This document shows, in pieces, positions 6,877 through 36,690 of a DNA stretch of 48,352 nucleotides. Source of the stretch: Desulfobacterium sp. Lineage in GTDB: Bacteria; Desulfobacterota; Desulfobacteria; Desulfobacterales; Desulfobacteraceae. Where the stretch lies: the NCBI GenBank assembly GCA_030145245.1, contig JAQYWC010000015.1, positions 1-48,352 on the forward strand, read 5' to 3'. Made by a program: the position numbers and the translations under genes. The first letter of the stretch is position 1. Every line of letters starts with the position of its first letter. The notes below the pieces were generated by a model. That model searched no databases. It worked only from the letters and a program-made list of their open reading frames with translations, and was not told the origin of the DNA.

Positions 6877-6891
6877 TGGTTTACTTTTTGC
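6877..6891 (+). promoter_or_regulatory. Sigma-54 promoter of PEP-CTERM gene
   Basis: TGGTTTACTTTTTGC has GG (6878-6879), exactly 10 bp, then GC (6890-6891), as sigma-54 (RpoN) promoters require. The identical element is at 36582-36596 before another sorting-signal gene. Transcription would start near 6903, just before the structured leader. In PEP-CTERM bacteria such genes are known to be under RpoN and the activator PrsR. Confidence 0.82.
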
Positions 6892-6905
6892 ATTCTTCTA
6901 CACCT

Positions 6906-6990
6906 CAAGTTAAAGCCAAATCTGTAGACGTATAGGTATGTATGGGAAAACAAAGGACCTCACTGGGAGATCGTTTGGTTGGCTTTGATA
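6906..6990 (+). ncRNA. Conserved structured leader RNA (copy A), candidate novel cis-regulatory RNA
   Basis: The segment can close with an 8-bp stem AAAGCCAA (6912-6919) / TTGGCTTT (6979-6986). Inside are a short hairpin (CTG 6922-6924 / TAG 6933-6935) and a second arm (AAAC 6948-6951 / GTTT 6973-6976) that encloses GGACCTC and GAGATC. The second copy at 36611-36690 keeps all stems. Pair A6950-T6974 becomes G36651-C36675, and G6924-T6933 becomes G36629-C36638. It starts at the predicted sigma-54 transcription start and ends 11 bp before the Shine-Dalgarno. It does not fit the GEMM aptamer seen at 8.9 and 10.4 kb. Confidence 0.6.
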
Positions 6991-7010
6991 AAAAAATAAG
7001 GAGAATTTTT

Positions 7011-7565
7011 ATGAAAAAACTTTTTAGTTTATTAACCGGATTGTTTTTAGTTATTACGGTTGCAGGAAGTGCGAGTGCGTTTACGAACATTGTGGAGTTA
7101 GGAGGACTAAATTATGGTAATGACCTTATCACATGGACACATGATGCACCTTCAGACTTTGAGGTTCCTTATGATATCATTTATTCCGCCACAATAACTA
7201 TCACATATAATTGGATCGAAACGGAAACGGGCGAAAATGTAAAGCTTGATGGCTCGATTATTGGTACATTAGACACGTATTCTTCATGTTGGTTATGGGG
7301 AAATCCAATGGATGACTTGGCATTCGCAGAGTTTGATGTTGCCGCTGAACTCGACCCATTTGATAATGGAAGTTTGTTAAATCTATCACTTAAAATAAAT
7401 GAATCCGGTGACTGGAGTGGAAAAGATTATATACTAGGTACGTCGACCTTTGACTTAGACTATGAGAATGGTAGTGCCCCCGTGCCAGAACCAGCCACAA
7501 TGGTTCTCTTTGGTCTTGGTCTTATAGGTCTTGCTGGAGCCAGTAGAAAAAAACTCAAGAAATAA
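7011..7565 (+). CDS. PEP-CTERM sorting domain protein
   Basis: This 184-residue exported protein starts at ATG 7011, preceded by AAGGAG (6998-7003); an upstream in-frame ATG at 6942 lies inside the leader RNA and is rejected. Residues 1-23 form a signal peptide (MKKLFSLLTGLFLVITVAGS..ASA). The middle is a beta-rich domain with no recognised catalytic motif. The C terminus is a classical PEP-CTERM signal: VPEPATMVLFGLGLIGLAG, then a basic tail. Such proteins are sorted by exosortase to the cell surface or extracellular matrix; no exosortase is encoded nearby. The gene has a sigma-54 promoter, a structured leader and its own terminator. Its cassette resembles that at 36.7 kb, although that protein has a VPLPA-type signal. 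Confidence 0.88.
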   Translation: MKKLFSLLTGLFLVITVAGSASAFTNIVELGGLNYGNDLITWTHDAPSDFEVPYDIIYSATITITYNWIETETGENVKLDGSIIGTLDTYSSCWLWGNPMDDLAFAEFDVAAELDPFDNGSLLNLSLKINESGDWSGKDYILGTSTFDLDYENGSAPVPEPATMVLFGLGLIGLAGASRKKLKK

Positions 7566-7587
7566 CCTATTCCACAAATTCAATCGC

Positions 7588-7624
7588 AAGGCAGGGTCAG
7601 CAATGGTTCTGCCTTTTTTATTTT
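7588..7624 (+). terminator. Intrinsic terminator of PEP-CTERM gene (cassette terminator, copy 1)
   Basis: AAGGCAGgg (7588-7596) pairs with ttCTGCCTT (7607-7615), the two inner pairs being G-T, and a T-rich tract follows. Nearly the same sequence follows the sorting-signal genes at 9781, 11240 and 37278. Confidence 0.85.
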
Positions 7625-7769
7625 ACCGAGCGTCAACAATGTATACCTTTCTAACACACCGAAAAAACCCGTCAAAAAAGCCGTTATTTGAATTGTTGAC
7701 ACTATTTTAAAAAAGATCCTAGGTGTTTTTGACACTTTCTGATAACACTTTAACCGAGGGGGGAGCACC

Positions 7770-8333
7770 ATGGGAAACATCTTCACTTATGCCAGGGTCT
7801 CGACACTTGACCAGAACACAGATTCACAGGTAACGGCATTGAAGGGAGCTTACCCGAAAGCAGTGCTCCGACAGGAAAAGAAGTCAGGCACCACGGCAAA
7901 GGATAGGTTCGTCCTGAACGTCATCCTGGACATGATCGGCAAAGGTGACAAGCTGGTGGTCTGGAAGCTGGACCGCCTGGCCCGGAACATGAAAGACCTT
8001 ACCGATATCATTGAGATCCTGAACAACAAGGGTGCCGCCTTGGAGATCCTTGACCAGAAGATTGACACCAGCACGGCAACGGGCCGGGCCTTCCTGCAAA
8101 TGTTGGGGGTCTTTGCAGAGTTTGAGACCAATCTCAGGAAGGAGCGCCAGCTTGCCGGGATAGCAGCGGCCAAGGCCAAGGGCAAGCACCTGGGCCGCAA
8201 GGCATCGCTCACCGATGACCAGAAGAAAGAGATCCGCACAAAGAACAAGACCGGGATGAACCCCACCACGCTCTCCAAGGAGTACGGGGTCAGTCGGGGG
8301 ACCGTATACAACGTTTTGAAGGAGACAGCATAG
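7770..8333 (+). CDS. Serine recombinase, resolvase/invertase family
   Basis: This 187-residue protein has the small-serine-recombinase layout. The N-terminal catalytic domain carries YARVSTLDQNTDSQ, with nucleophilic Ser in ARVST. Next come LVVWKLDRLARN, LTDIIEILN and TATGRAFLQMLGVFAEFE, and then the long E helix. The C-terminal 45 residues are a Hin-type helix-turn-helix (TTLSKEYGVSRGTVYNVL). It would resolve or invert DNA between short res/inv sites. A G-rich Shine-Dalgarno (GAGGGGGGAG) precedes ATG 7770. Upstream, TTGACACT occurs twice (7696-7703, 7739-7746), which could be promoter or binding elements. Length is typical; no inactivating change seen. A 35-codon reading frame follows 23 bp downstream. 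Confidence 0.93.
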   Translation: MGNIFTYARVSTLDQNTDSQVTALKGAYPKAVLRQEKKSGTTAKDRFVLNVILDMIGKGDKLVVWKLDRLARNMKDLTDIIEILNNKGAALEILDQKIDTSTATGRAFLQMLGVFAEFETNLRKERQLAGIAAAKAKGKHLGRKASLTDDQKKEIRTKNKTGMNPTTLSKEYGVSRGTVYNVLKETA

Positions 8334-8356
8334 ATGGATATCAACCCGACACACCT

Positions 8357-8464
8357 ATGACTTTGGCAACTATTCAGGCATTCAGGAAGATGCTCGATGT
8401 CATAGAGGAGTTTGTCAGGAATACCGAAGCTGAACGGCTGGAGGAGGGGCAGGCCGGAGAGTGA
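8357..8464 (+). CDS. Small conserved-in-window protein, 35 residues
   Basis: A short frame starts at ATG 8357 and encodes a charged helical peptide beginning MTLATIQAFRKMLDVIEEF and ending in TGA 8462-8464. A second version at 10130 begins MTLATIQVFRKVLDLTEKF with largely conservative replacements and then a stop. Preservation of the peptide across the two copies argues that it was translated. It follows the resolvase by 23 bp. No function is recognised. No clear Shine-Dalgarno was found, so confidence is limited. Confidence 0.4.
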   Translation: MTLATIQAFRKMLDVIEEFVRNTEAERLEEGQAGE

Positions 8465-8925
8465 ACTCCTGCCCAGGGGCTTTCCAGGGTAACTTTCTAC
8501 GCCTTCCAACAAAAACGGTTTGAAATCACGCTGAAATCAACCTGACTCATGACAGCCATTATTGAAAGGGTTATCCGGCGTTTTGAAATTACGTCGAAAT
8601 TTTATCAGCTTGTAAATGGCCAAGATTCTCTTTGCCGCCATGGTGATCCGGGGCAATTATGACGTTTCTGGTCACACTTGTTATGTCAAATCCTGTCCAC
8701 CTGGAGAATCGCCCTCACAGGATGCCCGGTTAGACTGGCTTACCCACAAGAGGGTTAATCTCCACTAAACTTGAATTTTGTATCTGGAAAACCAAAGTCT
8801 GCGGATACCATATATTGTATCTTGGTAAGATGGAAAATATTTGCAAGACCTTTTTCGCAAATCCTTGTATTCCCTTGACGACTTGATTCTAATATGCACA
8901 GATGTGGTATCCACAATTCATATGT
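8465..8925 (+). other. Non-coding region upstream of the first GEMM riboswitch
   Basis: No gene seen. From about 8750 the sequence is duplicated at about 10250 (AAACCAAAGTCTGCGGA against AAACCAAAGTTTGCGGA, then ATATATTGT and CTTGG). Both copies contain TTGACG (8875-8880; 10373-10378) about 50 bp before the aptamer, followed 17 bp later by ACAG rather than a normal -10. A perfect dyad TGTGGTATCCACA covers about 8903-8915. The promoter is therefore probably activator-dependent or divergent from the consensus. Confidence 0.4.
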
Positions 8926-9018
8926 TAAAGCCAAACTCTGAGTGATCAGAGGACGGAAAGCCACGGGTCATTAATGACAGCCGGGTTGCACATTGGGTGC
9001 AATTCGGCTTTTTTTTTG
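8926..9018 (+). ncRNA. GEMM (cyclic dinucleotide) riboswitch with overlapping terminator, copy 1
   Basis: The aptamer shows the GEMM-I order. CAAAC (8932-8936) is followed by stem CTCTGA/TCAGAG with a GTGA (GNRA) loop, then GGACGGAAAGCCACGGGTC and GACAGCCGGGTTGC. The 3' strand of the aptamer is also the 5' arm of an intrinsic terminator (8979-8991 with 8997-9009, 13 pairs including two G-T), followed by a T-tract. Ligand binding should hold the shared strand and prevent termination, an ON switch. The ligand could be c-di-GMP or 3',3'-cGAMP. The base before CAAAC is C, not the G or A I would expect, so ligand identity is open. Confidence 0.85.
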
Positions 9019-9050
9019 TTTTTTATCAATTATTTAGGAGGCGGAGATCA

Positions 9051-9761
9051 ATGAGGCACTTGTTAACAGGTTTTGCGGCGATTTTATTTTTAATAGGTCT
9101 GGGAGGCGTATCTGAAGCACAGCTAACCACCATCGGAACGGCACAGTTTGGAGGAACCGGCACAGAATACAACTTGATCTGGGACGATGACAACAATGGT
9201 AACTCTGTTGTCTGGCTGGATTATACGAATGGATCTCTTACCGGGAAAAAACAGAATGTTTGGGCCGCCGAGCTTGGTTTGTCTTTGAGCTATAAGGTTG
9301 ATCCTACTTATACCATCACGTGGGATGATGCTGCATGGCGGCTGCCCAGCACTGTTGACGGGCTCTATGTAAGAGGTGATGACGGGACCACTACGGGAGG
9401 GTGGAACGTAACTAGTTCCGAGATGGGCCATCTGTACTATGAGGAACTGAGAAACCTGGCCGGCATGGGGGGGCCCCAGTCAGAAGGTGGTTTGAAGTAC
9501 ACTGGAGATTTTGAAAATTTAAATGGTTTATCCGGTTCTTGGTACGCATCCGGTACAGAGTATGCTCTAACCCCGGGCTACGGCTGGGCCTTCTACATGG
9601 TCTCCGGGTTCCAGAGTGTCCATAGTTTTGCCAACGGTGGTTATTACGGTTTAGCAGTTCGCAGTGGACAAGTTTCAACGACTCCAATACCTGCTGCAGC
9701 TTGGCTCTTAGGTTCCGGGCTTGTCGGACTTGCGGGAGTAAGGCGTAAGCTTAATAAATAA
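9051..9761 (+). CDS. VPLPA-CTERM sorting domain protein with DUF1566-like domain (copy 1)
   Basis: This 236-residue secreted protein starts at ATG 9051, behind AGGAGGCGGAG; an in-frame upstream start would run through the riboswitch terminator. The signal peptide spans about residues 1-24 and ends ..GVSEAQ. The body has WRLPSTVDG, SSEMGHLYYEEL, YWASGTE-like (SWYASGTEYAL), WAFYMVSG and GLAVRSG, the pattern of DUF1566/Lcl C-terminal domains that fold like C-type lectin modules on cell surfaces. The C terminus, TPIPAAAWLLGSGLVGLAG then RRK, is a VPLPA-CTERM exosortase signal. It is expressed behind a GEMM riboswitch and followed by the common cassette terminator. The gene at 10555 is a diverged duplicate. 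Confidence 0.88.
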   Translation: MRHLLTGFAAILFLIGLGGVSEAQLTTIGTAQFGGTGTEYNLIWDDDNNGNSVVWLDYTNGSLTGKKQNVWAAELGLSLSYKVDPTYTITWDDAAWRLPSTVDGLYVRGDDGTTTGGWNVTSSEMGHLYYEELRNLAGMGGPQSEGGLKYTGDFENLNGLSGSWYASGTEYALTPGYGWAFYMVSGFQSVHSFANGGYYGLAVRSGQVSTTPIPAAAWLLGSGLVGLAGVRRKLNK

Positions 9762-9780
9762 AATCATAAAATCCAATCAC

Positions 9781-9817
9781 AAGGCAGGGTTTAGCAATGG
9801 CTCTGCCTTTTTTATTT
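9781..9817 (+). terminator. Cassette terminator, copy 2
   Basis: AAGGCAG (9781-9787) pairs with CTGCCTT around a GGTTTAGCAATGGCT loop region and is followed by TTTTTATTTT. It is the same module as at 7588 and 37278. Confidence 0.85.
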
Positions 9818-9943
9818 TGAGGTACTATATGTGGTATGTGGTTACCCCTTCAAACTGCAAACTTACATGCGTTTTTATACATTGGTACCTATAAATTCTG
9901 CTGTTGCACACCACTCCATAGTGGTTTCCCCGATTAATCAAAA

Positions 9944-9975
9944 ACTTGTTAACTTATACACAAAAGTTAACAAGT
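9944..9975. repeat. Perfect 12-8-12 inverted repeat, recombinase core-like site
   Basis: ACTTGTTAACTT (9944-9955) and AAGTTAACAAGT (9964-9975) are perfect complements around the 8-bp spacer ATACACAA. Just outside both arms lies CGATTAAYC in direct orientation (9931 and 9976). Arm and spacer lengths are those of tyrosine-recombinase crossover sites. No T-tract follows, so it is unlikely to be a terminator. Confidence 0.6.
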
Positions 9976-10129
9976 CGATTAACCCCGAAGATACCCACAA
10001 ATAAAGATTGTCCCGGACCAGCCCAGATCCAGTTCCTGCCACGGCCTGGGTAATTCAGGCTTCAAGGGTGTGTTTTCTTTTTGCAGGTTCCAGCCTTGTC
10101 GTTGCCCGGGTCCATGCTCCCGTGCTCCC

Positions 10130-10231
10130 ATGACACTGGCAACCATTCAGGTCTTTAGGAAAGTGTTGGATTTAACGGAGAAGTTTGCCCGGTCTACCTA
10201 AGCTGAACGGTTGGAAGGCAGGGGCGTGATC
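10130..10231 (+). pseudogene. Decayed copy of the 35-residue small ORF
   Basis: ATG 10130 opens MTLATIQVFRKVLDLTEKF and stops at TAA 10199-10201. The same frame continues with AERLEG, matching the AERLEE of the intact copy at 8357. This shows a nonsense mutation in a duplicated gene and dates the duplication of this locus to before the decay. Confidence 0.5.
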
Positions 10232-10423
10232 CCTGCCTATGATAAAGAGTGCTAATCTCCAATAAGCTTGGATTTCATATCTAAAAAACCAAAGTTTGCG
10301 GAGACTATATATTGTGTCTTGGCAATATGAAAATAATCTGCGATATTGTTTTCGCGAATTTCAATTATTTTCTTGACGATCTAACTCGTATATGAACAGT
10401 GTTATCTCTGTAGTTCATATATT

Positions 10424-10518
10424 AAACGCCAAACTCTGAGCGATCAGAGGACGGAAAGCCACGGGTCATTATGATAGCCGGGTTGCACATTGGGTGTAAC
10501 CCGGTTTTTTTGTTTTTT
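10424..10518 (+). ncRNA. GEMM (cyclic dinucleotide) riboswitch with overlapping terminator, copy 2
   Basis: The architecture equals copy 1: CAAAC, stem CTCTGA/TCAGAG with GCGA (GNRA) loop, GGACGGAAAGCCACGGGTC, then ATAGCCGGGTTGC. The terminator arms (10478-10488 with 10494-10504) form 11 pairs including one G-T and are followed by a T-rich tract. Differences from copy 1 keep pairing (GTGA to GCGA loop; G-T pairs in the copy-1 terminator are G-C here), which supports a functional RNA. The base before CAAAC is again C. Confidence 0.86.
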
Positions 10519-10554
10519 TTATCAGTTCTTCAATTATTTAGGAAATGGAGATTT

Positions 10555-11220
10555 ATGAAACGCTTATTAACTGGTTTTGCGGCTATTTTATTGTTAACAG
10601 GGATAGCAGGCGTATCCGACGCACAGTTAACCACCATCGGTACGGCAACTTATAATGGTGCTGATTACAACCTGATCTATGACGCAGACGGTCCCCTTGG
10701 CCCCATCACTTGGCTGGATTATAGTCATACACCAAACCATTTCTACTATCAGATGCCATGGGCAGCCACCCTTGGCTCCGACCTTACGGTAACCTTGAAT
10801 CCTGGTTGCATTACGGATATTGACTGGACGGCAGACTGGCGGCTGCCCAGTGCCGGAGCGAATCCTCCACTGGAAAGTTACAATGTGATCACCTCGGAGA
10901 TGGGGCATCTGTTTTATAATGAGTTGGGGTTAAGTGCGAATCCTCCTTTAACTACTGATGCACAATTGAACGCCACCAATTTTGATAATTTAATTGCCTC
11001 CTTCTACTGGTCCGGCACTGAGCACCCAGACGTCCAGGGCTACGCCTGGGATTTCGTAATGAGCCACGGCTACCACTCATGCCCCAACACGTACGGCCGT
11101 TTATACGGGTTAGCCGTTCGTAGCGGACAAGTTTCAGTGGTTCCCATACCAGCAGCTGTCTGGCTATTCGGTTCAGGCTTGATAGGTCTTGCAGGAGCCA
11201 GACGTAAACTCAAAAAATAG
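10555..11220 (+). CDS. VPLPA-CTERM sorting domain protein with DUF1566-like domain (copy 2)
   Basis: This 221-residue secreted protein is the paralogue of the gene at 9051. ATG 10555 follows GGAAATGGAG. The signal peptide (MKRLLTGFAAILLLTGIAGV..) is almost the same as copy 1. The body keeps WRLPSAG, TSEMGHLFYNELG, FYWSGTEH, YAWDFVMSHGYHS and GLAVRSGQVS, so it belongs to the same DUF1566-like fold, but intervening loops differ strongly, suggesting diversification of a surface module. The C terminus VPIPAAVWLFGSGLIGLAG plus RRK is the exosortase signal. It is controlled by GEMM riboswitch copy 2; the terminator after it is decayed. Confidence 0.88.
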   Translation: MKRLLTGFAAILLLTGIAGVSDAQLTTIGTATYNGADYNLIYDADGPLGPITWLDYSHTPNHFYYQMPWAATLGSDLTVTLNPGCITDIDWTADWRLPSAGANPPLESYNVITSEMGHLFYNELGLSANPPLTTDAQLNATNFDNLIASFYWSGTEHPDVQGYAWDFVMSHGYHSCPNTYGRLYGLAVRSGQVSVVPIPAAVWLFGSGLIGLAGARRKLKK

Positions 11221-11239
11221 CTTCACAGAATACAGTCAT

Positions 11240-11270
11240 AGGCCGGGTCAGAAATGGCTCTGCCTTTGTA
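11240..11270 (+). terminator. Cassette terminator, copy 3 (degenerate)
   Basis: AGGCCGGGTCAGAAATGGCT precedes CTGCCTTTG. The module is the same as the other three but one arm has a mismatch and the T-tract is broken, so termination is probably weak and may allow readthrough opposite the integrase gene. Confidence 0.5.
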
Positions 11271-11378
11271 ACCTTTTGCGATACTATATGTGGTATAAGC
11301 TTTAATTCAAAAGGCTGATCGAAATGAGTTTTTATACATTATAAAAACGCATCTTCATCCCCTGGGCCTGCCACACCA

Positions 11379-12383
11379 TCAATACCGGACCGCAAAGCTT
11401 GCACTTTCCCTGTATTTGGCTGTGCGCTTATCATACATCTGCGTGGTCTTGATCTGGGCATGCCCGACCGTTTTCTGTACCGCCTCAATGGGGCAATTGT
11501 TCTCCAGGGCCTGGGTAATAAAGGTGGCCCTGGCGGAATGGGGCGTGACGCCGGCAATGCCGACCTTTTTTGCGTATTTGTTAAACAGATGGTCGATGGT
11601 TCTGCGGCTGAGCTTTCTTTTGGGGTCCGATGCTTTGTAGCCCGACTTGACCGGTAAAAAAAGAACGCTTGCCTGGTCGGACCCGTGTCCGGCCTCTGTC
11701 AGATATTGGTCCAAGGCGATCTGTAGTTCCTGGTTGATGGCCATGCGGTTGCGCTTCCCGCCTTTGACCCAGAAATCCAGCACAAAAAAGCCCTGTTCCT
11801 CGTAAAAATCTCTGACCTTGAGGGAACACACCTCGGATACCCGGCATCCTGTAAAAAAGAGCGTGCTTAAAATGGCTCTGTCCCTCAGCCCCTGCAGCTT
11901 GGAAACGTCAGGAGAGTTGAGGAGGTTCCGGACCTCGTCCGGCGTTAACACCTTTGCCTCGACCCGGGAGGCGTTCACCGGCATGCGCTTAACGCCCTGG
12001 GCGACATTGATTTTAACCACCTGCTGATCGATCAGGTGATTGAACAGGGAAGAGATGGCGGAGAGGCGGTTATTGATGGTGCGGGCGCTCCTGCCCTGGT
12101 CCTGCAGGAACTTTTTAAAGGCGATCACATGGCCGTGGGTGATCGACCGCAACTCTTCCGGAGAAGAGATCCCCAGGAAATCTAAAAAAGTCCGGATGGC
12201 CCTGTCATAGGTGTCCACGGAATTGTCCGAATTGAAATTTGCTTTCCACAAAAGCTCCTCCGGCGCCTCCCGGAGAGCCTCCATGACGGAAACCTCTCCT
12301 CCCGGATCCGCCGTGGCAACCTGATTGATTTTGTCAGAATCAAAGCATAATCGTTTTTTGATTTCTCGTCCCTCCTGCGTCAT
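11379..12383 (-). CDS. Tyrosine recombinase / integrase, XerC-like
   Basis: This 334-residue protein has an N-terminal SAM-like core-binding domain (about 35-130: TYDRAIRTFLDFLG ... ARTINNRLSAISSLFNHL) and a complete catalytic domain. Arg is in TGCRVSEVCSLK, HxxR is in PHSARATFITQAL, the late His is in VGHAQIKTTQMYDK and the nucleophilic Tyr follows in QMY. It should promote site-specific integration or excision. ATG 12383 has no good Shine-Dalgarno. A 16-6-16 perfect inverted repeat lies only 27 bp upstream of the start. It is convergent with the PEP-CTERM cassettes and independent of the recombinase trio. It could be an integrase of the island or a stand-alone dimer resolver. Confidence 0.9.
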   Translation of the reverse strand: MTQEGREIKKRLCFDSDKINQVATADPGGEVSVMEALREAPEELLWKANFNSDNSVDTYDRAIRTFLDFLGISSPEELRSITHGHVIAFKKFLQDQGRSARTINNRLSAISSLFNHLIDQQVVKINVAQGVKRMPVNASRVEAKVLTPDEVRNLLNSPDVSKLQGLRDRAILSTLFFTGCRVSEVCSLKVRDFYEEQGFFVLDFWVKGGKRNRMAINQELQIALDQYLTEAGHGSDQASVLFLPVKSGYKASDPKRKLSRRTIDHLFNKYAKKVGIAGVTPHSARATFITQALENNCPIEAVQKTVGHAQIKTTQMYDKRTAKYRESASFAVRY

Positions 12384-12409
12384 TTTTTCCGGTAAAAATC
12401 CGACTCCCA

Positions 12410-12447
12410 GTTTTATTGCACATAATGCCTTTTATGTGCAATAAAAC
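12410..12447. repeat. Perfect 16-6-16 inverted repeat upstream of the integrase
   Basis: GTTTTATTGCACATAA (12410-12425) and TTATGTGCAATAAAAC (12432-12447) are perfect complements around a 6-bp spacer. It could be the integrase core site, its operator, or a terminator for transcripts entering from the right. Arm length and a 6-bp spacer favour a protein-binding or recombination site; no long T-tract follows on either strand. Confidence 0.6.
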
Positions 12448-12623
12448 CTTTGGATTCGAGCATAAGGGGAGCAAACGGGGAAAACCGGGTTGGTTGGTGA
12501 CCATAAAAAAAATCTGGGTGCAGGATGATACCGGTTTGTTATTAAGGCCAATCTTGAAATCTTCGTCAGTATAAGTCAAACTATTTGGTCTATTCACTGA
12601 CGCGGTCGTAAACTCCCTTGTCG

Positions 12624-12687
12624 CCTCGCCAGGTTCCAAATTATTTTTGGAAACAGCACCCCAAAAATAATTTAAAACCTGTCGAGG
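12624..12687. repeat. Long imperfect palindrome
   Basis: The strand from 12624 to 12650 pairs with 12661 to 12687 over 27 positions with three mismatches, around the 10-nt loop AAACAGCACC. It lies in a 670-bp region (12384-13053) with no credible gene. That region also has GTACTTTTTGT (12730-12740) facing ACAAAAAAGTAC (12750-12761). It may be a foldable element end, a MITE-like remnant or an attC-like site. Confidence 0.5.
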
Positions 12688-12874
12688 TCGTACAACCGTT
12701 AAACTGTAACGTTTGTATTGAATGGAGCTGTACTTTTTGTGGAAACTTTACAAAAAAGTACTTAATTTGTTTAGTGCATAATGCAATCTATTGTAATTGT
12801 AGCTAAAAATAATAATTTACATTTAGTCGGTCATCTTAACCGTTCTGAAAATGACCTAAGGTAAAAGTGTAAAC

Positions 12875-12913
12875 AAAATGGCGTAATTCCTTGGAATTAC
12901 GCCATTTTTAGCT
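12875..12913 (+). terminator. Strong hairpin, terminator-like
   Basis: AAAATGGCGTAATTCC (12875-12890) and GGAATTACGCCATTTT (12893-12908) are perfect complements with a 2-nt spacer; a short T run ends the right arm. It directly precedes the repeated recombinase-start segment, just as the ssb terminator precedes the original at 236. Confidence 0.55.
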
Positions 12914-12926
12914 TTGTACCCTCCTG

Positions 12927-12992
12927 TGTGTGCTGCATAGTTGTTCTGTCGTTAACAGTACTTTCATGGAGTGTAAACTATGCCTCGTCTTT
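12927..12992 (+). repeat. Second copy of the recombinase operon promoter/start segment
   Basis: It aligns without gaps to 251-316 with 47 of 66 identical bases. Identical blocks include CATGGAGTGTAAAC (12965-12978 against 289-302), GTTAAC and CGTCTTT. After the ATG (12980) only four codons (MPRL, against MARL) correspond; the rest is unrelated. It marks either the far boundary of an island or the 5' stump of a second recombinase element. Confidence 0.7.
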
Positions 12993-13053
12993 CGCCGTCA
13001 AGAACGGCAACAATAGGGGCTGTGCTGGGACGTGGAGGCGTGAGCGATAACGG

Positions 13054-14475: not shown

Positions 14476-14561
14476 GGCCCTCTTATAACACGGGGCGGGG
14501 GATTTTAAAATCCTTGGCCGTGAATTCCCTTCTTCTCATGGGAAAGGGGTGTATAAAAATA

Positions 14562-14669
14562 TTACATGTAAAAAAAGTCGGGTTTTTCCTTGGTAATCCT
14601 TTTATCTCAGGCGGTTAAACGGGTGTTTTCGGTTGGGGATGGTTATTTGTAAAAAATAATTACAAATAA
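14562..14669 (+). promoter_or_regulatory. Candidate upstream activator sites for the sigma-54 activator
   Basis: TTATTTGTAA (14643-14652) and TTACAAATAA (14660-14669) form a perfect 10-7-10 dyad about 125 bp before the expected transcription start of the sulfatase operon, the usual enhancer distance. A related palindrome, TTACATGTAA, is at 14562-14571. Both share TTAC half-sites, so they may be two binding sites for the divergent activator. Confidence 0.6.
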
Positions 14670-16821: not shown

Positions 16822-16836
16822 TATTCGATCAATTGG

Positions 16837-28775: not shown

Positions 28776-28794
28776 GACCCATTATAGATCCTCC

Positions 28795-28886: not shown

Positions 28887-28925
28887 AGAGCCCAGGCCCG
28901 GGAGCAACCGGGGAAATGATGACTT

Positions 28926-31900
28926 ATGAATGTGATTAAGAGTGCAATAGAGAGACCTGTTACCACGGCTGTCATGGTGATACTGATCGTCCTGTTCGGT
29001 GTGATCGGGCTCATGAAACTACCTGTTCAGCTCGCTCCGGACACGGATCTGCCCGAGATCGAGGTGATGACCTCCTGGTCCGGGGCAAGTCCCACGGAGA
29101 TGGAGAGCGAGGTGGTGGAACGCCAGGAGGACAAGCTCAAGAGCCTCCAGAACCTCCAGAAGATGGAGAGCTCCTCCTACAACGACTACGCCACCATCAC
29201 CCTCACCTTTGACCTTGCAACCAATATTGACACGGCCATGTTCCGGGTCTCCAACAAGCTCAAAGAGGTGTCCGACTACCCGGATAACGTGCTGGAGCCC
29301 GTCCTGTCCAGCTCCGGCGGCTCTTCCCAGCCCATCATCTGGATGCTGATGAAGACCAAGGAGGGGCCTGACACGGAGATCCTCAAGTACAAGACCTTTT
29401 TTGAAAACGAGGTTCGCCAGTACCTGGAGCGTATCGAGGGGGTCGCCTCCCTTTTGATCTTCGGCGGCACCGAGGACCAGCTGGAGATCGTGATCGATCC
29501 GGAAAAGATGACCCGCCGGGGCATCACCATCAACCAGATCATCTCCAAGGTGGTGGCGGCCAACAGCGATGTTTCCGCAGGGGTGCTGGGCATTGACCGG
29601 AAAAACTACCGGATCCGCACCGTGGCCAAGTTCCAGAACAGCTTTGATCCCCTGGATGTGGTGGTCTATGACGACGGCATGAAGCGGGTATTCCTGCGGG
29701 ATGTGGCCACCACCCGCATCGGGTACGAGACCCAGTTTGTTTCAGTGATGGAGAACTCCCGGGAGGGGATCGTCATTGGCGTGAAAAAGCAGAAGGGCGC
29801 CAACGTCATTGAGATTGTGAAACGGGTAAAAGCCGAGGTGGACCGCCTGAATTCCGAGGTGCTGGCCGACAAGAACCTCTATATCAACTGGGCCCACGAT
29901 GAGGCGCCCTACATCCTGAAATCCATTGACAACATGAAGAAGAATGTGATCATCGGCGGCGTGCTTGCCATCATCATTCTGCTCGTCTTTTTGGGAAGCC
30001 TTCGGTCCACCATCACCATCGGCCTTGCCATTCCCATTTCGGCCATCGGCACCTTCATCTTTCTGTGGCTGTTTCACCGGAACCTGAACGTTGTCAGCCT
30101 TGCCGGCATCTCCTTTGCCGTGGGCATGCTGGTGGACAACTCCATCGTGGTGCTGGAGAACATCGACCGCCACCGCCAGACCGGCAAAAGAATCTTCGAT
30201 GCCGTGCTGGATGGCGCCAATGAGGTGTTCGGGGCGGTGGTGGCCTCCACCCTTACCACGGTGGCGGTGTTCCTGCCGGTCATCTTCATCAAGCAGGAGG
30301 CGGGCCAGCTGTTCAAGGATATCTCCATCGCCATCACCGCCTCCATCATTCTGAGTCTTTTGGTGTCGGTCACCGTGATCCCTTCGTTCATGCACTTTAT
30401 CTATAAGAACCAGAAGGTCAGCACCGGGGGCAACAAAAAAAGCGTTTCAAAATCCGTGGGCGGTTTCTTTGTGAACCTGATCATGGGCGTGTCAAACCAG
30501 TTCCAGCGGAATGCGGTTACCCGGATTATCTGCATCCTTGTGTTCACTTCCCTCTCCCTTGCCAGTGTCTGGGCCCTGATGCCCAAGGCCGAGTACCTGC
30601 CCCAGGGCAACCGGAACTTTGTCATGAGCATCCTGGTGCCGCCGCCTGGCTATTCTGCGGAAAAGCGCCGGGAGGTGGGGGAGTATCTGTTTGAACAGAC
30701 AGAGAAGTACAGGACCCCCGGGGACCACGACCTGCCCCTGATCCGTAACATGTTCTATTTCTCCTCCGACTCCCTGTCGGGATTTGGCCTTTCTGCCATT
30801 GACGAGTATGAGACCGAGGCCGGACGGTTCATCCCGGCCATGAACCGGATCATCAACTCTTTACCCGGCATGTTCGGCATCAGCATCCAGCCCGGTATCT
30901 TTGAGACCGGCATGGGCAAGGGGCGAACCGTGGATCTCAACATCTCCGGCGAAAACATGAACGAGATCGTCAAGGCCGGCGGCATGCTCTTTGGGGCCGT
31001 TTCCCAGGCGATCCCAGGGTCCCAGATCCGCCCGGTGCCCTCCCTTGAGATCACCTATCCCGAGGGACGGGTGATTGCCGATAAGCTCAAGCTTGCGGCC
31101 AACGGACTTACCGAGCAGGAGCTTGGCATCTACGTGGATGTGCTCATGAACGGCAGAAAGGTGGACGAGTTCGGCCCGGAAGGCAAGGACCGCATCGATC
31201 TTGTGGTCAGGGGCTCTGAAACCGAGTTCAAGACCCCGGAGGATATCCTCAACGCCCCCATTGTCAACAACATCGGCCGCCAGGTGCGCATCGGGGATGT
31301 GGCCACCATCAAGTACTCTACGGGCATGACCCAGATCGACCGGCTGGAGAAGAAGCGGAACGTCCGGCTTGAGATCACGCCCCCCGTGTCCGTGCCCCTT
31401 CAGACGGCCATCGAGACCATCAAGGCCGCCTGCGACAACCTGCAGGCATCGGGTCAGATCAAAGATATCTCCCTGGATCTGGGCGGTAATGCGGACAAGC
31501 TTGTGGATACCTTTGACGCCCTGAAGTGGAACCTGCTGCTGGCCCTCATGATCACCTACCTTTTGATGGCGGCCCTGTTTGAGAACTTTCTCTATCCCCT
31601 GATCATCATGTTCAGCGTGCCGTTGGCCGCGGCCGGCGGGCTCATGGGCCTGAGGCTCGTGGATCTTGTGATCGCGCCCCAGCCGTTGGATGTGCTCACC
31701 ATGCTTGGTTTCATCATCCTCATCGGCACCGTGGTGAACAACGCCATCCTCATCGTTCACCAGTCGCTGAACAATGTCAGAAACAAGGGCATGGAGGGGA
31801 TGCTGGCCATCTCGGATTCGGTGAGGACAAGGATACGCCCCATCTTCATGAGCGCCTTTACCTCCATCTTCGGCCTCATGCCCCTTGTGATCGCCACCGG

Positions 31901-32072
31901 ATCCGGCAGCGAGCTCTACCGGGGCATCGGCAGCGTGCTGCTGGGCGGGCTTGCCCTCTCAACCCTGTTTACCCTGTTTGTGATTCCGGCCCTGCTGGCC
32001 TTTTTCATCGGGCTCGAAAAGAGCAAGGTTGACCAGGACGCCCTGGCTTACAGAGGTTCCCACCCGAATTGA
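28926..32072 (+). CDS. RND family efflux pump, inner-membrane permease
   Basis: This 1048-residue protein is the usual length of an AcrB/MexB-type RND transporter. An N-terminal TM helix (ITAVMVILIVLFGVIGL-like) and PVQLAPDTDLPEIEV are followed by a large periplasmic loop. TM helices with GISFAVGMLVDNSIVVLENIDRH contain the proton-relay Asp pair in TM4. The second half repeats this layout and ends with TMLGFIILIGTVVNNAILIVH and RPIFMSAFTSIFGLMPL. It exports hydrophobic or toxic compounds using the proton gradient, together with the adaptor before and the outer-membrane protein after it. No defect seen. Confidence 0.95.
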   Translation: MNVIKSAIERPVTTAVMVILIVLFGVIGLMKLPVQLAPDTDLPEIEVMTSWSGASPTEMESEVVERQEDKLKSLQNLQKMESSSYNDYATITLTFDLATNIDTAMFRVSNKLKEVSDYPDNVLEPVLSSSGGSSQPIIWMLMKTKEGPDTEILKYKTFFENEVRQYLERIEGVASLLIFGGTEDQLEIVIDPEKMTRRGITINQIISKVVAANSDVSAGVLGIDRKNYRIRTVAKFQNSFDPLDVVVYDDGMKRVFLRDVATTRIGYETQFVSVMENSREGIVIGVKKQKGANVIEIVKRVKAEVDRLNSEVLADKNLYINWAHDEAPYILKSIDNMKKNVIIGGVLAIIILLVFLGSLRSTITIGLAIPISAIGTFIFLWLFHRNLNVVSLAGISFAVGMLVDNSIVVLENIDRHRQTGKRIFDAVLDGANEVFGAVVASTLTTVAVFLPVIFIKQEAGQLFKDISIAITASIILSLLVSVTVIPSFMHFIYKNQKVSTGGNKKSVSKSVGGFFVNLIMGVSNQFQRNAVTRIICILVFTSLSLASVWALMPKAEYLPQGNRNFVMSILVPPPGYSAEKRREVGEYLFEQTEKYRTPGDHDLPLIRNMFYFSSDSLSGFGLSAIDEYETEAGRFIPAMNRIINSLPGMFGISIQPGIFETGMGKGRTVDLNISGENMNEIVKAGGMLFGAVSQAIPGSQIRPVPSLEITYPEGRVIADKLKLAANGLTEQELGIYVDVLMNGRKVDEFGPEGKDRIDLVVRGSETEFKTPEDILNAPIVNNIGRQVRIGDVATIKYSTGMTQIDRLEKKRNVRLEITPPVSVPLQTAIETIKAACDNLQASGQIKDISLDLGGNADKLVDTFDALKWNLLLALMITYLLMAALFENFLYPLIIMFSVPLAAAGGLMGLRLVDLVIAPQPLDVLTMLGFIILIGTVVNNAILIVHQSLNNVRNKGMEGMLAISDSVRTRIRPIFMSAFTSIFGLMPLVIATGSGSELYRGIGSVLLGGLALSTLFTLFVIPALLAFFIGLEKSKVDQDALAYRGSHPN

Positions 32073-32140
32073 TGCCTGTTTTACCCATGAAAGTAAAAGA
32101 TGGGCGCTATTGGCAGGCGAAGCGCGTAAATTTGAATCCA
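32064..32140. repeat. Intergenic palindromic repeat family, copy 3
   Basis: CCGAATTGATGCCTGTTTTA starts inside the pump stop codon and the segment ends GGCAGGCGAAGCGCGTAAAT TTGAATCC. An inner hairpin ACCCAT/GATGGGC-like is present. It lies between the pump and TolC genes. Confidence 0.5.
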
Positions 32141-32164
32141 ACATTATTTTGAACGGAGCATGGA

Positions 32165-33439
32165 ATGAAAAGAATGATCGGGGTAACCCTGGTGGGGATG
32201 ATGGCGGTGCTGGTGTCAGGGGTGACAGCCCCGGGTGCCGCCACCCTTGAAACCCTTCAAAGCAGCGCATATGACAACCGTGGCCTGGTAAAGCAATACC
32301 AGGCTGACCTGGATATCAGCAAGGAGCAGGTGAGGGAGGCCCGGGGCGAGTTTTTCCCCTCCCTGGATCTGGGCTACACCCTGAACCGCCTCAACCACGA
32401 CACGGCCGTGGACGAGAACCGGAAGAACGATACCTTTACCGGCGGGGCCTCCTGGAATGTGTTTGCCGGGTTCAAGGATTACTACAATCTCAAGGCGGCC
32501 GAGACCCTGACCCATGCCAGTGGCTTCAGGCTTGACTCGGTCAGGCAGGATATCAGCCTTCGGGTGGCCCTGGACTATCTTTCGGTCTACCAGGCCATGG
32601 CGAACCTCAAGGTGTCTGAAAACGAGGTCAAGCTTTACGAGGACCGGTTGAAGCAGGTCCGCCTCAAGGTCAAGGTGGGGGTGCTCAAGAAGACCGACCT
32701 GTTAAAGATCAAGGTGGAGATGGACAACGCCCTTCAGAACCGGCGCAGGACCGAGGCTGACGTTGCCGCTTCGGTCAACCTGCTTGCCTTTGACACCGGT
32801 ACCCGGGTTGCGAGGGAGGAGCTTGATTTTTCACTCTTTGATCAATTGCCGGACCGGGGGGAGTACCCGGCCTATGAGAAGCTTCTCCTTGAGAACCGGA
32901 GCGAGCTCAACGCCCTCAGGCGCTCCCTTATGGCCTCGGGCATGCGGGTGGCCGCATCCAAAGCGTCCCTCTATCCCCGGGCAGACCTGAATATGAGCTA
33001 CGCTTCCCACACCCGGGACGATTTCTTCGCAGACGGGTTTGAGAACTCCGACGACGAGGTGCGCTGCCAGGCCGTGATCTCCATGAACCTCTTTGACGGC
33101 ATGAAAAAATATGCCCGGACAAGCCAGGCCAGGCTTGAACAGAAAAAGATCGGGTTTGAGATCACAGAGCTTGAGGAGGCGCTCAAGACAGAGCTGAAAA
33201 ACACCCTGCTCAACCTGGATGTGGCCTTTGACAACCTGGCCGTGGCCAAGGCCGGCACCGCCGAGGCCAAGGAGAACCTGAGGGTCACGGATCTTGGGTT
33301 CAGCCAGGGCATTGGCACCTCCTCGGATGTGCTGGACGCCATCTTCAACCTCTCACGGGCACGGTTCAACCTGATCAACGCCTATAAAGAGGTGTTTGAG
33401 AATAATTTCAGGCTGAAACGCCTGGTGGAGAGTTTTTGA
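32165..33439 (+). CDS. TolC-family outer-membrane efflux protein
   Basis: This 424-residue protein has a signal peptide at about 1-25 (GMMAVLVSGVTAPGAA). Two OEP repeats follow with long heptad helices: the first at about 30-215 (VRLKVKVGVLKKTDLLKIKVEMDNA), the second at about 235-420 (NLRVTDLGFSQGIGTSSDVLDAIFNLSRARF). It forms the trimeric outer-membrane channel of the tripartite pump. ATG 32165 has ACGGAG upstream. It is last in the operon and followed by nested strong hairpins. Confidence 0.93.
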   Translation: MKRMIGVTLVGMMAVLVSGVTAPGAATLETLQSSAYDNRGLVKQYQADLDISKEQVREARGEFFPSLDLGYTLNRLNHDTAVDENRKNDTFTGGASWNVFAGFKDYYNLKAAETLTHASGFRLDSVRQDISLRVALDYLSVYQAMANLKVSENEVKLYEDRLKQVRLKVKVGVLKKTDLLKIKVEMDNALQNRRRTEADVAASVNLLAFDTGTRVAREELDFSLFDQLPDRGEYPAYEKLLLENRSELNALRRSLMASGMRVAASKASLYPRADLNMSYASHTRDDFFADGFENSDDEVRCQAVISMNLFDGMKKYARTSQARLEQKKIGFEITELEEALKTELKNTLLNLDVAFDNLAVAKAGTAEAKENLRVTDLGFSQGIGTSSDVLDAIFNLSRARFNLINAYKEVFENNFRLKRLVESF

Positions 33440-33470
33440 TCCGCTGATCCGCTGATCGTTTTTAAATAGG

Positions 33471-33552
33471 GGAACCGGCACTGAAGGCATCAGGGCCGGT
33501 TCCAGGATTCAAGGGCATGGACAGACCGAACGGTTTGCCCATGCCTTTTTTA
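33471..33552 (+). terminator. Double terminator of the efflux operon
   Basis: The first hairpin is GGAACCGGC (33471-33479) / GCCGGTTCC (33495-33503). The second is GGCATGG (33514-33520) / CCATGCC (33539-33545) with an inner ACCG/CGGT stem and six T residues. Confidence 0.9.
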
Positions 33553-33761
33553 TTAACAGGCCGTTAGCCGCCGGGCAATTTTTCCTGGTAAAAACTGAAA
33601 TCCTCCCCCCCCATTTGCGTATCCTGATCGAGTTCGGTGCCATGGGTAACTATTTTTAAAAAAAGTTGACTTTCCCCTATACGGAAAGCCTTACGGTGCG
33701 GATTGAAAGGGAATCTTTAAAATATGGTTTTTGTCTTTATTTTTTAATGATGGAGGTATGT

Positions 33762-36182
33762 ATGACGGTTGTCGAGGAATCAGCAATGGCTAAAGGCGCT
33801 AAACGTGAGAAATCCGGGCTTCCTGCGCGTATTCAGCAGCTTAAGGACGCTTACCTGAAAGTAAAACCCAGTATCACCATCGGTCGTGCCCTGGCCTTTA
33901 CTGACGTTGCGAAGCAGCACCCTGAATTGCCGAACAATCTGCGCCGGGCCATGGGGTTTAAAAAAGCGTGCGAAACCGCGCCAATGCTGATTCAGGAAGG
34001 CGAACTGATTGTCGGTCATCCCTGTGGCAAGGCCCGTGCCGGAGCGTTCTCTCCGGATACCGCCTGGAAATGGGTCCGGGACGAACTCGACACCATCGGC
34101 ACCCGCTCCCAGGACCCCTACGTCATCAGCGAAGGGGACAAGAAGATCATGCGCGAAAAGATCTTCCCCTTCTGGGAAGGCAGATCCCTTGATGAAGCGT
34201 GCGAAGCGTCCTTCCGCAAAGAGGGCCTGTGGGAGTTCTCCGCTGAAGCCTGTGTGAGTGATTTGACCTATCATCATACCAGCGGTGGCGGCGACACCAG
34301 CCCCGGTTATGACATCATCCTGTTTACCAAAGGGATTGGTGGCATCAAGGCCGAGGCTGAAGCGCATTTGGCAAAGCTGTCCACGGATGCAGCAGGGGAG
34401 ATGGAGACCATCTCCTTCTACCGGGCCGCCATTGAAACCTGTGACGGGATCCTTCTCTACGCCAACCGACTGTCCGCCTACGCAACGGAGCTGGCTGCAA
34501 ACGAGCCGGATCCCAGGCGCAGGGCTGAGCTTGCAAAGATCGCCGAGGTCAATGCCCGGGTGCCGGCCCATCCGCCGGAGACGTTCCAGGAGGCGCTCCA
34601 GGCCATCTGGACCATCCAGTCCCTGTTCCTGATGGAGGAAAACCAGTGCAGCACATCCCTGGGGCGCTTTGACCAGTATGTCTATCCCTGCTACGAAGCC
34701 GATATAAAAGCCGGTGTCCTGGATGAAAACCAGGCCTTTGAACTGATGGGCTGCTTTATCCTCAAATGTTCAGAGATGATATGGTACACCCCCGGCGGGA
34801 CGGCCAAATATTTCGCAGGCTACATGCCCTTCATCAACCTGTGTGTGGGCGGGCAGAAGCGGGGGGGCGGTGACGGGACCAATGCGCTGACCTATCTTGT
34901 CATGGACGCCGTTCGCCGGGTGGGGGTGTATCAGCCCTCCCTTGCCTGCCGGATTCACAACCAGTCCCCCCAAAAGTACCTGCAGAAGATCGTGGAGGTG
35001 GTCAAAGCCGGGGGTGGCATGCCCGCCTGCCACTTTGACGATGCCCACATCAAGATGATGCTCCGCAAGGGCTTTGATTTTGACGATGCCCGGGATTACT
35101 GCCTCATGGGCTGTGTTGAGCCCCAGAAATCGGGCCGGATCCACCAGTGGACAGCAGGTGGGTTTACCCAGTGGCCCATTGCCATCGAGTTTGTTTTCAA
35201 CCGTGGCGTGCTCAAATCCTACGGCAGCAAACAGGGGCTGGATACCGGCGAACTGGATCAGTTTGCCACATATGAACAGTTTGATGCCGCTGTCAAAAAG
35301 CAGCTGGATTACATCATGGCGCTGACGGCCAAAGGGACGGTGATCAACCAGCAACTGGTCCGGGATATGGTGCCCACCCCCTATATGTCCCTGTTTGTCG
35401 ATGGCTGCATGGAAACCGGCAAAGATGTCACCGCCGGTGGTGCCGTTCTCTATGAAGGGCCGGGAACGATCTTTGCCGGTCTGGGCTCCTACGCCGACAG
35501 CATGGCCGCCATCAAAAAACTGGTCTATGACGACAAAAAATACACCCTTACCGACATGAAGAAAGCCCTGGACGCCAACTGGGAAGGCCATGGGCAGATG
35601 CGCCGGGATTGCCTCAATGCACCCAAGTTCGGTAACGACGACGATTACGCCGACCGGATCACAGCGGATGTGATCGATTACACCGAAAAAACCATCAATC
35701 AGCATAAATCCCTCTACGCCCGTTTGATCCACGGCACCCTGTCCCAGTCATTCAACACCCCCCTGGGGGAGATGATCGCAGCCACTCCCAACGGCCGTTT
35801 GGCCGGCGCGCCCCTGTCCGACGGGATGAGCCCGTCCCAGGGGGCCGACACCAAGGGGCCCACGGCCATCATCAAGTCGGTGTCTAAGCTGAATGTTGAA
35901 TCCATGAGCCTGGGGATGTCACACAACTTCAAGCTGATGGAAGGGTCCCTGGACACCCCGGAGGGCGCAGCCGGACTGATATCTCTGTTGCGCACGGCGT
36001 CCATTCTCGGCAATGCCCAGATGCAGTTCAATTACATGGATAACGAAACGTTGAAGCTGGCCCAGGAGAACCCGGAAGAGTATCGGGATCTCATGATCCG
36101 TGTGGCCGGATACAGTGCCTTCTTTGTTGAGTTGTGTAAAGAGGTGCAGGACGAGATCATCAGCCGCACCACGCTGGAGTAG
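33762..36182 (+). CDS. Glycyl radical enzyme, choline TMA-lyase (CutC)-like, without adjacent activase
   Basis: This 806-residue protein starts at ATG 33762 (GGAGG 6 bp upstream). The thiyl Cys is C451 in MGCVEPQKSGR with Glu at 453; the radical Gly is G783 in RVAGYSAF near the C terminus. Using D. alaskensis CutC numbering from memory (Y208, D216, F395, C489, E491, T502, Y506), the same spacings from C451 land on Y170, D178, F357, E453, T464 and F468. All are kept except Tyr506 to Phe. At the positions of the sulfonate-binding Arg/Gln of isethionate lyase there are His172 and Gly176. It is thus most like choline trimethylamine-lyase or a close quaternary-amine lyase. No radical SAM activase and no microcompartment genes flank it, unlike cut operons. 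Confidence 0.85.
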   Translation: MTVVEESAMAKGAKREKSGLPARIQQLKDAYLKVKPSITIGRALAFTDVAKQHPELPNNLRRAMGFKKACETAPMLIQEGELIVGHPCGKARAGAFSPDTAWKWVRDELDTIGTRSQDPYVISEGDKKIMREKIFPFWEGRSLDEACEASFRKEGLWEFSAEACVSDLTYHHTSGGGDTSPGYDIILFTKGIGGIKAEAEAHLAKLSTDAAGEMETISFYRAAIETCDGILLYANRLSAYATELAANEPDPRRRAELAKIAEVNARVPAHPPETFQEALQAIWTIQSLFLMEENQCSTSLGRFDQYVYPCYEADIKAGVLDENQAFELMGCFILKCSEMIWYTPGGTAKYFAGYMPFINLCVGGQKRGGGDGTNALTYLVMDAVRRVGVYQPSLACRIHNQSPQKYLQKIVEVVKAGGGMPACHFDDAHIKMMLRKGFDFDDARDYCLMGCVEPQKSGRIHQWTAGGFTQWPIAIEFVFNRGVLKSYGSKQGLDTGELDQFATYEQFDAAVKKQLDYIMALTAKGTVINQQLVRDMVPTPYMSLFVDGCMETGKDVTAGGAVLYEGPGTIFAGLGSYADSMAAIKKLVYDDKKYTLTDMKKALDANWEGHGQMRRDCLNAPKFGNDDDYADRITADVIDYTEKTINQHKSLYARLIHGTLSQSFNTPLGEMIAATPNGRLAGAPLSDGMSPSQGADTKGPTAIIKSVSKLNVESMSLGMSHNFKLMEGSLDTPEGAAGLISLLRTASILGNAQMQFNYMDNETLKLAQENPEEYRDLMIRVAGYSAFFVELCKEVQDEIISRTTLE

Positions 36183-36224
36183 GTGGGGACGGAACCGTAA
36201 GATGGCCTGAACGGTGAGATGAGC

Positions 36225-36249
36225 CCAGCCCCCGCTCGGTGGGGGCTGG
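36225..36249 (+). terminator. GC-rich hairpin after the glycyl radical enzyme
   Basis: CCAGCCCCC (36225-36233) pairs with GGGGGCTGG (36241-36249), loop of 7. There is no T-tract, so it may be a 3'-stabilising hairpin or weak terminator. The rest of 36250-36575 holds no gene; its right part is AT-rich and resembles the DNA before 6877. Confidence 0.7.
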
Positions 36250-36581
36250 CGTTGAGCGGCCGGATAGGGTACCTTCCGGTTATCGCCCGAGGGCGCGCCG
36301 GGGAAAGGTGCATGTCGGCAATGGCCGCCCTGGGCTCATATCATTGAAATCCCCGTTTCTGAAAAAGCAGTTGGGGGCGATTTTAAGTAAGTGGGAAGTA
36401 AAAGAAATAAAATGGCAAAGAATGTGGTATTTACTTCCTATTGCGGTGGCTTATTATTACCTTTTTTACCCAATAAGTGAAATCACTCTTTGGGTTTAAA
36501 TAAAGTGTTTCGGCTTCAAGCAGCTCTATTACTGAGTTTTCGGGGTTTTATTTGGTAAACCCCTAATAGGTTGCAATAACA

Positions 36582-36596
36582 TGGTTTACTTTTTGC
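36582..36596 (+). promoter_or_regulatory. Sigma-54 promoter of VPLPA-CTERM gene
   Basis: TGGTTTACTTTTTGC is identical to 6877-6891; GG 36583-36584, 10 bp, GC 36595-36596. The upstream 120 bp also share blocks with the other copy (CCTTTTTTACCCA, AAATAAAGTGTTT). Confidence 0.85.
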
Positions 36597-36610
36597 ATCT
36601 TCCTGGGATT

Positions 36611-36690
36611 CAAGTTAAAGCCAATTCTGCAGACGTACAGGCATGGAAAAGCAAAGGACCTCATGGGGAGATCGCTTGGTTGGCTTTGAT
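36611..36690 (+). ncRNA. Conserved structured leader RNA (copy B)
   Basis: The outer stem is AAAGCCAA (36617-36624) / TTGGCTTT (36680-36687). The inner hairpin is CTG (36627-36629) / CAG (36638-36640), and the second arm is AAGC (36649-36652) / GCTT (36674-36677) enclosing GGACCTC..GAGATC. It matches copy A at 6906-6990 with compensatory or pairing-consistent changes. It starts at the expected sigma-54 start point. Confidence 0.62.

Follow-up and report, generated by a model that had tools for sequence, protein, structure and literature searches.

The question raised by this locus of Desulfobacterium sp. (GenBank contig JAQYWC010000015.1, of which positions 1 to 48,352 were analysed and are referred to here as the window) is what kind of RNA is specified by two similar leaders, each of which precedes a surface-protein gene, and whether they represent an undescribed riboswitch, as proposed in a preliminary description of this DNA. 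The c-di-GMP class I riboswitch, also known as GEMM-I, is an RNA sensor of a bacterial signal molecule. Each leader is probably (at a rough probability of 0.6) a strongly diverged GEMM-I homologue located at the start of a sigma-54-dependent mRNA that encodes a surface protein ending in a C-terminal sorting signal; the homology, the position behind a sigma-54-like site, the constraint between the two paralogues and the identity of the downstream genes as surface-protein genes were established by computation. Both leaders were located at the positions previously proposed, and profile matches confirmed that sorting-signal genes follow them, i.e. a PEP-CTERM gene after copy 1 and a VPLPA-CTERM gene after copy 2 (Table 1).

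Table 1. The two leaders, their predicted promoters and associated genes and aptamers in the window (R2 is the covariance model described in the text).
Feature	Positions	Strand	Evidence
Conserved upstream block, copy 1	6745..6800	+	44/56 columns identical; counterpart 36451-36506
Predicted sigma-54-like promoter, copy 1 (TGGTTTACTTTTTGC)	6877..6891	+	GG-N10-GC; 6871-6892 identical at 21/22 positions between paralogues
Leader copy 1, diverged GEMM-I aptamer by sequence comparison	6906..6987	+	R2 21.2 bits, E 3.4e-4; RF03167 15.9 bits (below cut-off)
PEP-CTERM surface-protein gene after copy 1	7011..7565	+	TIGR02595 24.8 bits (cut-off 16); PF07589 34.8 bits (cut-off 20.7)
Ordinary GEMM-I aptamer before VPLPA-CTERM gene 9051-9761	8921..8994	+	RF03167 60 bits (cut-off 59); TIGR03370 (gene)
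Ordinary GEMM-I aptamer before VPLPA-CTERM gene 10555-11220	10419..10491	+	RF03167 59.9 bits (cut-off 59); TIGR03370 (gene)
Predicted sigma-54-like promoter, copy 2 (TGGTTTACTTTTTGC)	36582..36596	+	15 bases identical to copy 1
Leader copy 2, diverged GEMM-I aptamer by sequence comparison	36611..36688	+	R2 32.0 bits, E 2.8e-7; RF03167 22.4 bits (below cut-off)
VPLPA-CTERM surface-protein gene after copy 2	36710..37258	+	TIGR03370 27.2 bits (cut-off 25.35)

Both ordinary GEMM-I aptamers listed in Table 1 belong to a tandem repeated unit of aptamer, VPLPA-CTERM gene and flanks (8354-9883 and 10127-11340), which comprises repeat families D1, D3, D6, D9, D13, D14 and D18, and a serine recombinase (7770-8333) and a tyrosine recombinase (11379-12383) are encoded nearby. 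A choline trimethylamine-lyase, CutC (33666-36182; 1357.8 bits, cut-off 1050), is encoded just 5' of leader copy 2.

Sigma-54 promoters follow the pattern GG-N10-GC, with transcription starting approximately 12 nt past the GC. Such an element, TGGTTTACTTTTTGC, was found before both genes, scoring 7/10 in each case, and the leader begins 14 nt downstream of its GC in both copies. Given the expected start spacing, the leader is predicted to represent the 5' end of the transcript, in agreement with the earlier proposal of a sigma-54-type promoter whose start coincides with the 5' edge of the leader. Alignment of the paralogues revealed identity in 72 of 81 leader columns, besides 4 gap columns, as compared with 5/13 in the flank before the leader and 10/18 in that after it, 41/69 between the upstream block and the sigma-54 site, and 39/60 over the first bases of the genes. 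The leader was shown to be more conserved than its immediate flanks (Fisher p 1.5e-5) and than positions 6801-6870 (Fisher p 4.6e-5). The constraint that had been claimed for the leader was thus upheld, with leader and promoter representing conserved islands between the paralogues; the poorly conserved stretches between these islands argue for selection rather than duplication alone, and recent duplication as the sole cause of the similarity was rejected. The upstream block of copy 1 (6745-6800) possibly represents an activator-binding region.

To assign the leaders to a known RNA family, the whole window was searched with Rfam at gathering thresholds, which yielded two c-di-GMP-I-GGC aptamers (at 8921 and 10419) and neither leader. 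In a permissive Rfam search (201 bases per copy), the top match was c-di-GMP-I-GGC over the full model length for both copy 1 (15.9 bits, E 0.17) and copy 2 (22.4 bits, E 0.0023), neither score reaching the RF03167 gathering threshold of 59. The genome itself encodes 15 GEMM-I matches above the RF01051 cut-off, and a covariance model (R2) was constructed from 11 of its ordinary GEMM-I aptamers, with the two leaders left out. When R2 was applied to the whole window with filters off, the ordinary aptamers at 8921 and 10419, both of which are in the training set, scored 88.6 and 80.0 bits, and the leaders ranked third (36611-36688, E 2.8e-7) and fourth (6906-6987, E 3.4e-4), followed by a match with an E-value of 0.22; these E-values are rough, the ranking of the matches being clear. 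As the training set also includes L003, the nearest relative of the leaders from the same genome, R2 retains some dependence on them.

The assertion that the leaders are unlike the GEMM aptamer is therefore contradicted by the full-length c-di-GMP-I-GGC match and by R2, which finds both copies, and that of an undescribed riboswitch class gives way, on the same grounds, to homology to Rfam clan CL00126. An Rfam family match, or homologues lacking the conserved pairing, had been named in advance as refuting a new class; in substance this is what was observed, as clan homology was found and the closing stem is not kept in relatives, although both scores lie under the Rfam cut-offs. On sequence grounds, the leaders are strongly altered c-di-GMP-I relatives and not a brand-new riboswitch.

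Homology in sequence and structure to known GEMM-I members is further indicated by a bridging sequence from another genus of the same family (G048:C305:67-151), which scored 50.8 bits with R1, a leader-based RNA model, and 36.3 bits with RF01051 (cut-off 35), thereby linking the leaders to GEMM-I. This sequence lies behind a sigma-54 site, TGGCACAGGTGTTGC, and has CUUUGAUAAAAAA and GGAGAAU in common with copy 1. It is followed by a PEP-CTERM gene (PF07589), a PilZ-domain gene, a second GEMM-I aptamer and a gene with a PEP-CTERM-like tail. PilZ is the usual c-di-GMP receptor domain, and in this contig it is encoded (L111/L236 883-1254) between the sigma-54/GEMM-I PEP-CTERM gene and the second aptamer. 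In the genome under study, L003 scored 54.7 bits with RF01051 and 38.3 bits with R1, has CAAGUUAAAGCCAA, CUCAUGGGGAGA and UGGUUGGC in common with copy 2, and is likewise followed by a PEP-CTERM gene.

Searches for additional members returned few sequences. BLAST with copy 2 identified 14 places in the own genome at E <=10 (5 with E <0.001) and, at E 0.001, matches in 4 of 86 family genomes, the own genome included. The search with a leader-based model that had been suggested produced R1 matches in 3 of the 86 family genomes (E 0.01) and, across the order, in 3 of 389 genomes (E 0.001), again including the own genome; the additional order-wide match, L231, resembles ordinary GEMM-I, and no further strong R1 member besides G048 was found among these 389 genomes. 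A degenerate pattern of the 3' half matched four stretches of the genome contigs: one is the G048 contig, L238 matches R2 weakly (E 0.0074) and at a site other than the pattern, and L235 and L237 are without an R2 match. Two further degraded GEMM-I copies occur in the own genome, L005 and L056 (29.2 and 21.7 bits with RF01051, respectively). In L056 (1502-1563; C68:40851-40912), most of P2 is absent, and the remnant is positioned 31 nt after a 10/10 sigma-54-like site, TGGCACATTTGTTGC. A distinct GEMM-I-like group (L183, L190, L193 and L065) carries AAAGGUAACCC...GGGUAACCACGG in P2 with sigma-54-like sites upstream (scores 8-10), and three GEMM-I matches in immediate tandem were observed at G079:C389:11053-11285 (L141).

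The structure originally proposed for the leaders consists of an 8-bp closing stem, AAAGCCAA/UUGGCUUU, and two inner arms. The stem can form and is present in both minimum-energy folds, yet it is broken without compensation in 7/7 relatives compared, and it was rejected as the conserved structure. The reported replacement of the A-U pair 6950-6974 by G-C at 36651-36675 is present, as is the G-U to G-C change between the copies. The second arm is complete in both copies; however, the arms differ between the minimum-energy folds, and the first arm has one pair broken in copy 2 (U-A to C-A). The folding energy of the leaders was not unusual (z -1.44 for copy 1 and -1.41 for copy 2). Across nine hand-picked relatives, the GEMM structure was paired in 91.7% of cells, both partners having changed in 5 pairs, and its covariation score reached 0.317, compared with 0.026-0.108 when slid, P2a being paired in 9/9 rows, P2b in 95.6% of cells and P3 in about 89-90%. 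In the same relatives, the earlier structure was paired in 82.9% of cells, with four pairs changed on both sides, two of them in P2, which is common to GEMM, and two in the arm that contains the covarying pair.

Four sequences contain the whole second arm, and its variable pair is A-U in copy 1, G-C in copy 2, U-A in the G048 relative and G-C in L017. Among the matches listed, the arm was complete in 3 of 125 scored aptamers, copy 1, which is displaced by one column there, being a would-be fourth; the GEMM P3 retained 9 or 10 of its 10 pairs in 106 of these 125 listed aptamers, as compared with 8 in copy 2. In the few sequences with the complete arm, P3 may thus be locally shifted.

If the closing stem and two arms instead defined a riboswitch or thermometer of non-GEMM origin, this would account for the presence of that stem in both minimum-energy folds and for the score of the earlier structure (0.168, versus 0.029-0.062 when slid), which is partly contributed by the covarying-pair arm. 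Yet the best helices of that structure, P2 and the P3 tip, belong to GEMM as well, and the closing stem, with 72.2% of cells paired in the nine relatives, has 7 of its 8 pairs departing by broken cells alone and none compensated. Among the listed aptamers, moreover, the second arm is complete in only the few just described. Together with the full-length c-di-GMP-I-GGC matches and the R2 E-values, these data make such an unrelated class very improbable, and it was rejected. The RNA thermometer, for its part, was not supported: the first four bases of the ribosome site have a predicted unpaired probability of 0.12-0.26 in copy 1, where the site is predicted to be mostly paired with the spacer, forming a small A-U/G-U hairpin, but of 0.41-0.81 in copy 2, where it is more open, and consistent hiding of the site was not seen across the predicted folds of the two copies.

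The ligand pocket was compared across 149 distinct aligned sequences out of 157 places among the matches listed, using numbering for G20, C44, A47, G83 and C92 that is presumably that of Vc2, as mapped from its sequence. In these 149 aptamers, G20 is retained in 136, A47 in 148, C44 in 138, C92 in 128 and the GNRA loop in 126. Both leaders retain G20 and A47, and in both the GNRA loop is altered to GACG, C44 to U and C92 to G, a combination found in 2 of the 149 listed aptamers, i.e. the two leaders only. The interhelical C44-G83 pair and the GNRA tetraloop are consequently absent from the leaders; G83 is kept, and a wobble with the U at position 44 is possible. In L003 as in the two leaders, the base following position 92 is a C, so that displacement rather than loss of C92 is a possibility. 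When the full set of GEMM pairs was imposed, in folds that penalize isolated pairs, the cost was 20.3 and 17.7 kcal/mol in the leaders (ranks 1 and 2 of 136 listed; median 2.35), and forcing P2a alone cost 10.1 and 6.1 kcal/mol (ranks 1 and 7 of 123 listed; median 0.1). Folding with P2a imposed gave a 7-bp P1 (GUUAAAG/CUUUGAU) in both leaders, with G20 paired to the C of UUGGC. The altered loop, C44 and C92 render c-di-GMP binding by the two leaders uncertain, and the costly GEMM fold and the pairing of G20 in P1 indicate that ligand binding is not to be taken for granted.

These observations allow for a relic, in which ligand binding has been lost, control resides with sigma-54, and a ligand-independent 5' structure protects the transcript or sets its translation. 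The loss of the GNRA loop, C44 and C92, the strongly disfavoured GEMM fold and the presence of other degraded copies (L005 and L056) in the own genome are consistent with such a relic. This possibility is considered a minor one, given that G20, A47 and 72 of 81 leader columns are kept between paralogues whose flanks have diverged. Less probable still is a GEMM-I subclass re-specialized for a signal other than c-di-GMP: C92, C44 and the loop are ligand-contact or pocket positions (contacts as named in the available part of PMC4744006) and the remainder is conserved, which speaks in its favour, but all three changes were found in only two closely related members (2/149 listed), and apart from G048 the R1 search of 389 order genomes produced no further strong member. 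A more elaborate version of the re-specialized subclass, judged unlikely, holds that the pocket would be filled by the leader's own G20-C pair atop the 7-bp P1, that P2a and the closing stem would exchange by branch migration in response to a non-c-di-GMP signal, that such leaders would occur on sigma-54 transcripts only, and that sigma-54 and GEMM-I would form a general two-key module. If true, this module, combining an activated promoter with a second messenger, would be general for Desulfobacteraceae-like surface proteins.

For the diverged GEMM-I homologue that we favour, the following mechanism may be envisaged. Sigma-54 and its activator would decide whether the transcript is made, after which the leader would exchange a GEMM-like three-way junction (P1, P2 and P3) for the extended closing stem AAAGCCAA/UUGGCUUU. 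c-di-GMP, or another cyclic dinucleotide related to it, would trigger this exchange between P2a and the extended stem, and the switching would tune translation or stability; the absence of an apparent terminator in the interval from leader to gene points to action at either of these levels. The two leaders would also illustrate how far GEMM-I can drift under constraint, beyond the standard Rfam cut-offs.

To assess whether the promoter arrangement extends beyond the two leaders, GEMM-I places in one bacterial family, that of the present genome, were surveyed for GG-N10-GC elements (score >=7/10, i.e. at least 7) within 64 bases ending at aptamer base 4. The survey is based on the RF01051 matches listed, for other genomes down to E 2.3e-4 with five lower listed rows left out, and it leans to ordinary aptamers because it was built on these matches. 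Nine of the 157 places were set aside, six because they duplicated another locus and three (L159:916, L134:484 and L224) because they matched poorly, which left 148. A sigma-54-like site was present in 48 of these 148 listed places, compared with 1.27 on average, and at most 5, in 200 shuffles. Following removal of near-identical upstream regions, 44 of 136 listed places had a site, whereas the four control windows, some of which were short or empty where the available sequence ended, gave 1, 5, 1 and 7 of 136; at score 8 the numbers were 34 against 1, 0, 0 and 3, and at score 9 they were 12 against 1, 0, 0 and 0. The leaders are counted in both the 148 and the 136, and without them 42 of 134 listed places have a site.

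The distance from GC to aptamer was 12-25 nt in 39 of the 44 listed places with a site. A PEP-CTERM-like gene, as recognized by an ad hoc pattern rather than a curated model, is next in 20 of these 44 (another complete ORF in 6, undeterminable in 18) and in 23 of the 92 listed places without a site (21 and 48, respectively). Words enriched upstream of the sites are A/T-rich and derive in part from near-identical copies, and they did not lead to the assignment of an activator. These sites represent predicted sigma-54 promoters in one family. PrsR was not found above its curated cut-off in the own genome (best 419.2 versus 502.6 bits), and a different activator may serve these promoters. The same genome has 66 matches (E <1e-60) to the sigma-54-dependent PEP-CTERM response-regulator model, none of them above cut-off. 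With approximately one-third of the surveyed listed aptamers (44/136) directly behind sigma-54-like sites, a single gene may depend on a second-messenger signal as well as on an activated promoter, which, if true, would link c-di-GMP to surface proteins that carry exosortase-type sorting signals.

A literature search of open-licence full texts did not reveal any report of a GEMM-I aptamer placed directly after a sigma-54 promoter, and the arrangement is not described in the accessible portions of PMC2725144, PMC8835794, PMC13194489, PMC11124144 and PMC11109978. In the available part of PMC12316311, the highest number of sigma-54 activator genes is attributed to Desulfobacteria, with 'riboswitch' occurring in its reference list only. 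Haft et al. 2006 (PMC1569441), as far as its accessible text goes, reported that 99 of 167 PEP-CTERM genes from proteobacteria are preceded by a sigma-54 motif. The PrsK/PrsR system of that work resembles the present loci in its GG/GC promoter motif before PEP-CTERM genes and its long upstream region, and differs in that no RNA element is described in the same portion of the paper and that PrsR is below cut-off in this genome. In Methylophaga nitratireducenticrescens GP59, c-di-GMP riboswitches beside PEP-CTERM genes are documented in the available part of PMC12530212; GEMM-type RNA likewise precedes PEP-CTERM and VPLPA-CTERM genes there, whereas its aptamers are annotated as ordinary ones and a sigma-54 site is not mentioned in that part.

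The accessible part of PMC4744006 names the GEMM-I contact residues, the interhelical pair and the tetraloop-receptor contact. Vc1 of Vibrio cholerae, as presented there, is similar to the leaders in that its GEMM motif lies early in the transcript, a terminator or anti-Shine-Dalgarno element is not apparent and its mechanism is unclear, but in Vc1 the interhelical C-G pair is intact, as are the contact residues, and not all of these are retained by the two leaders. Relative to the c-di-GMP-I class as a whole (RF01051 and RF03167, clan CL00126), the leaders deviate in scoring below the Rfam cut-offs, in lacking the GNRA loop, in the C44 to U and C92 to G changes and in favouring the extended closing stem, whereas they conform to it in their end-to-end alignment, P2, P3, G20 and A47, and in serving as leaders of surface-protein genes.
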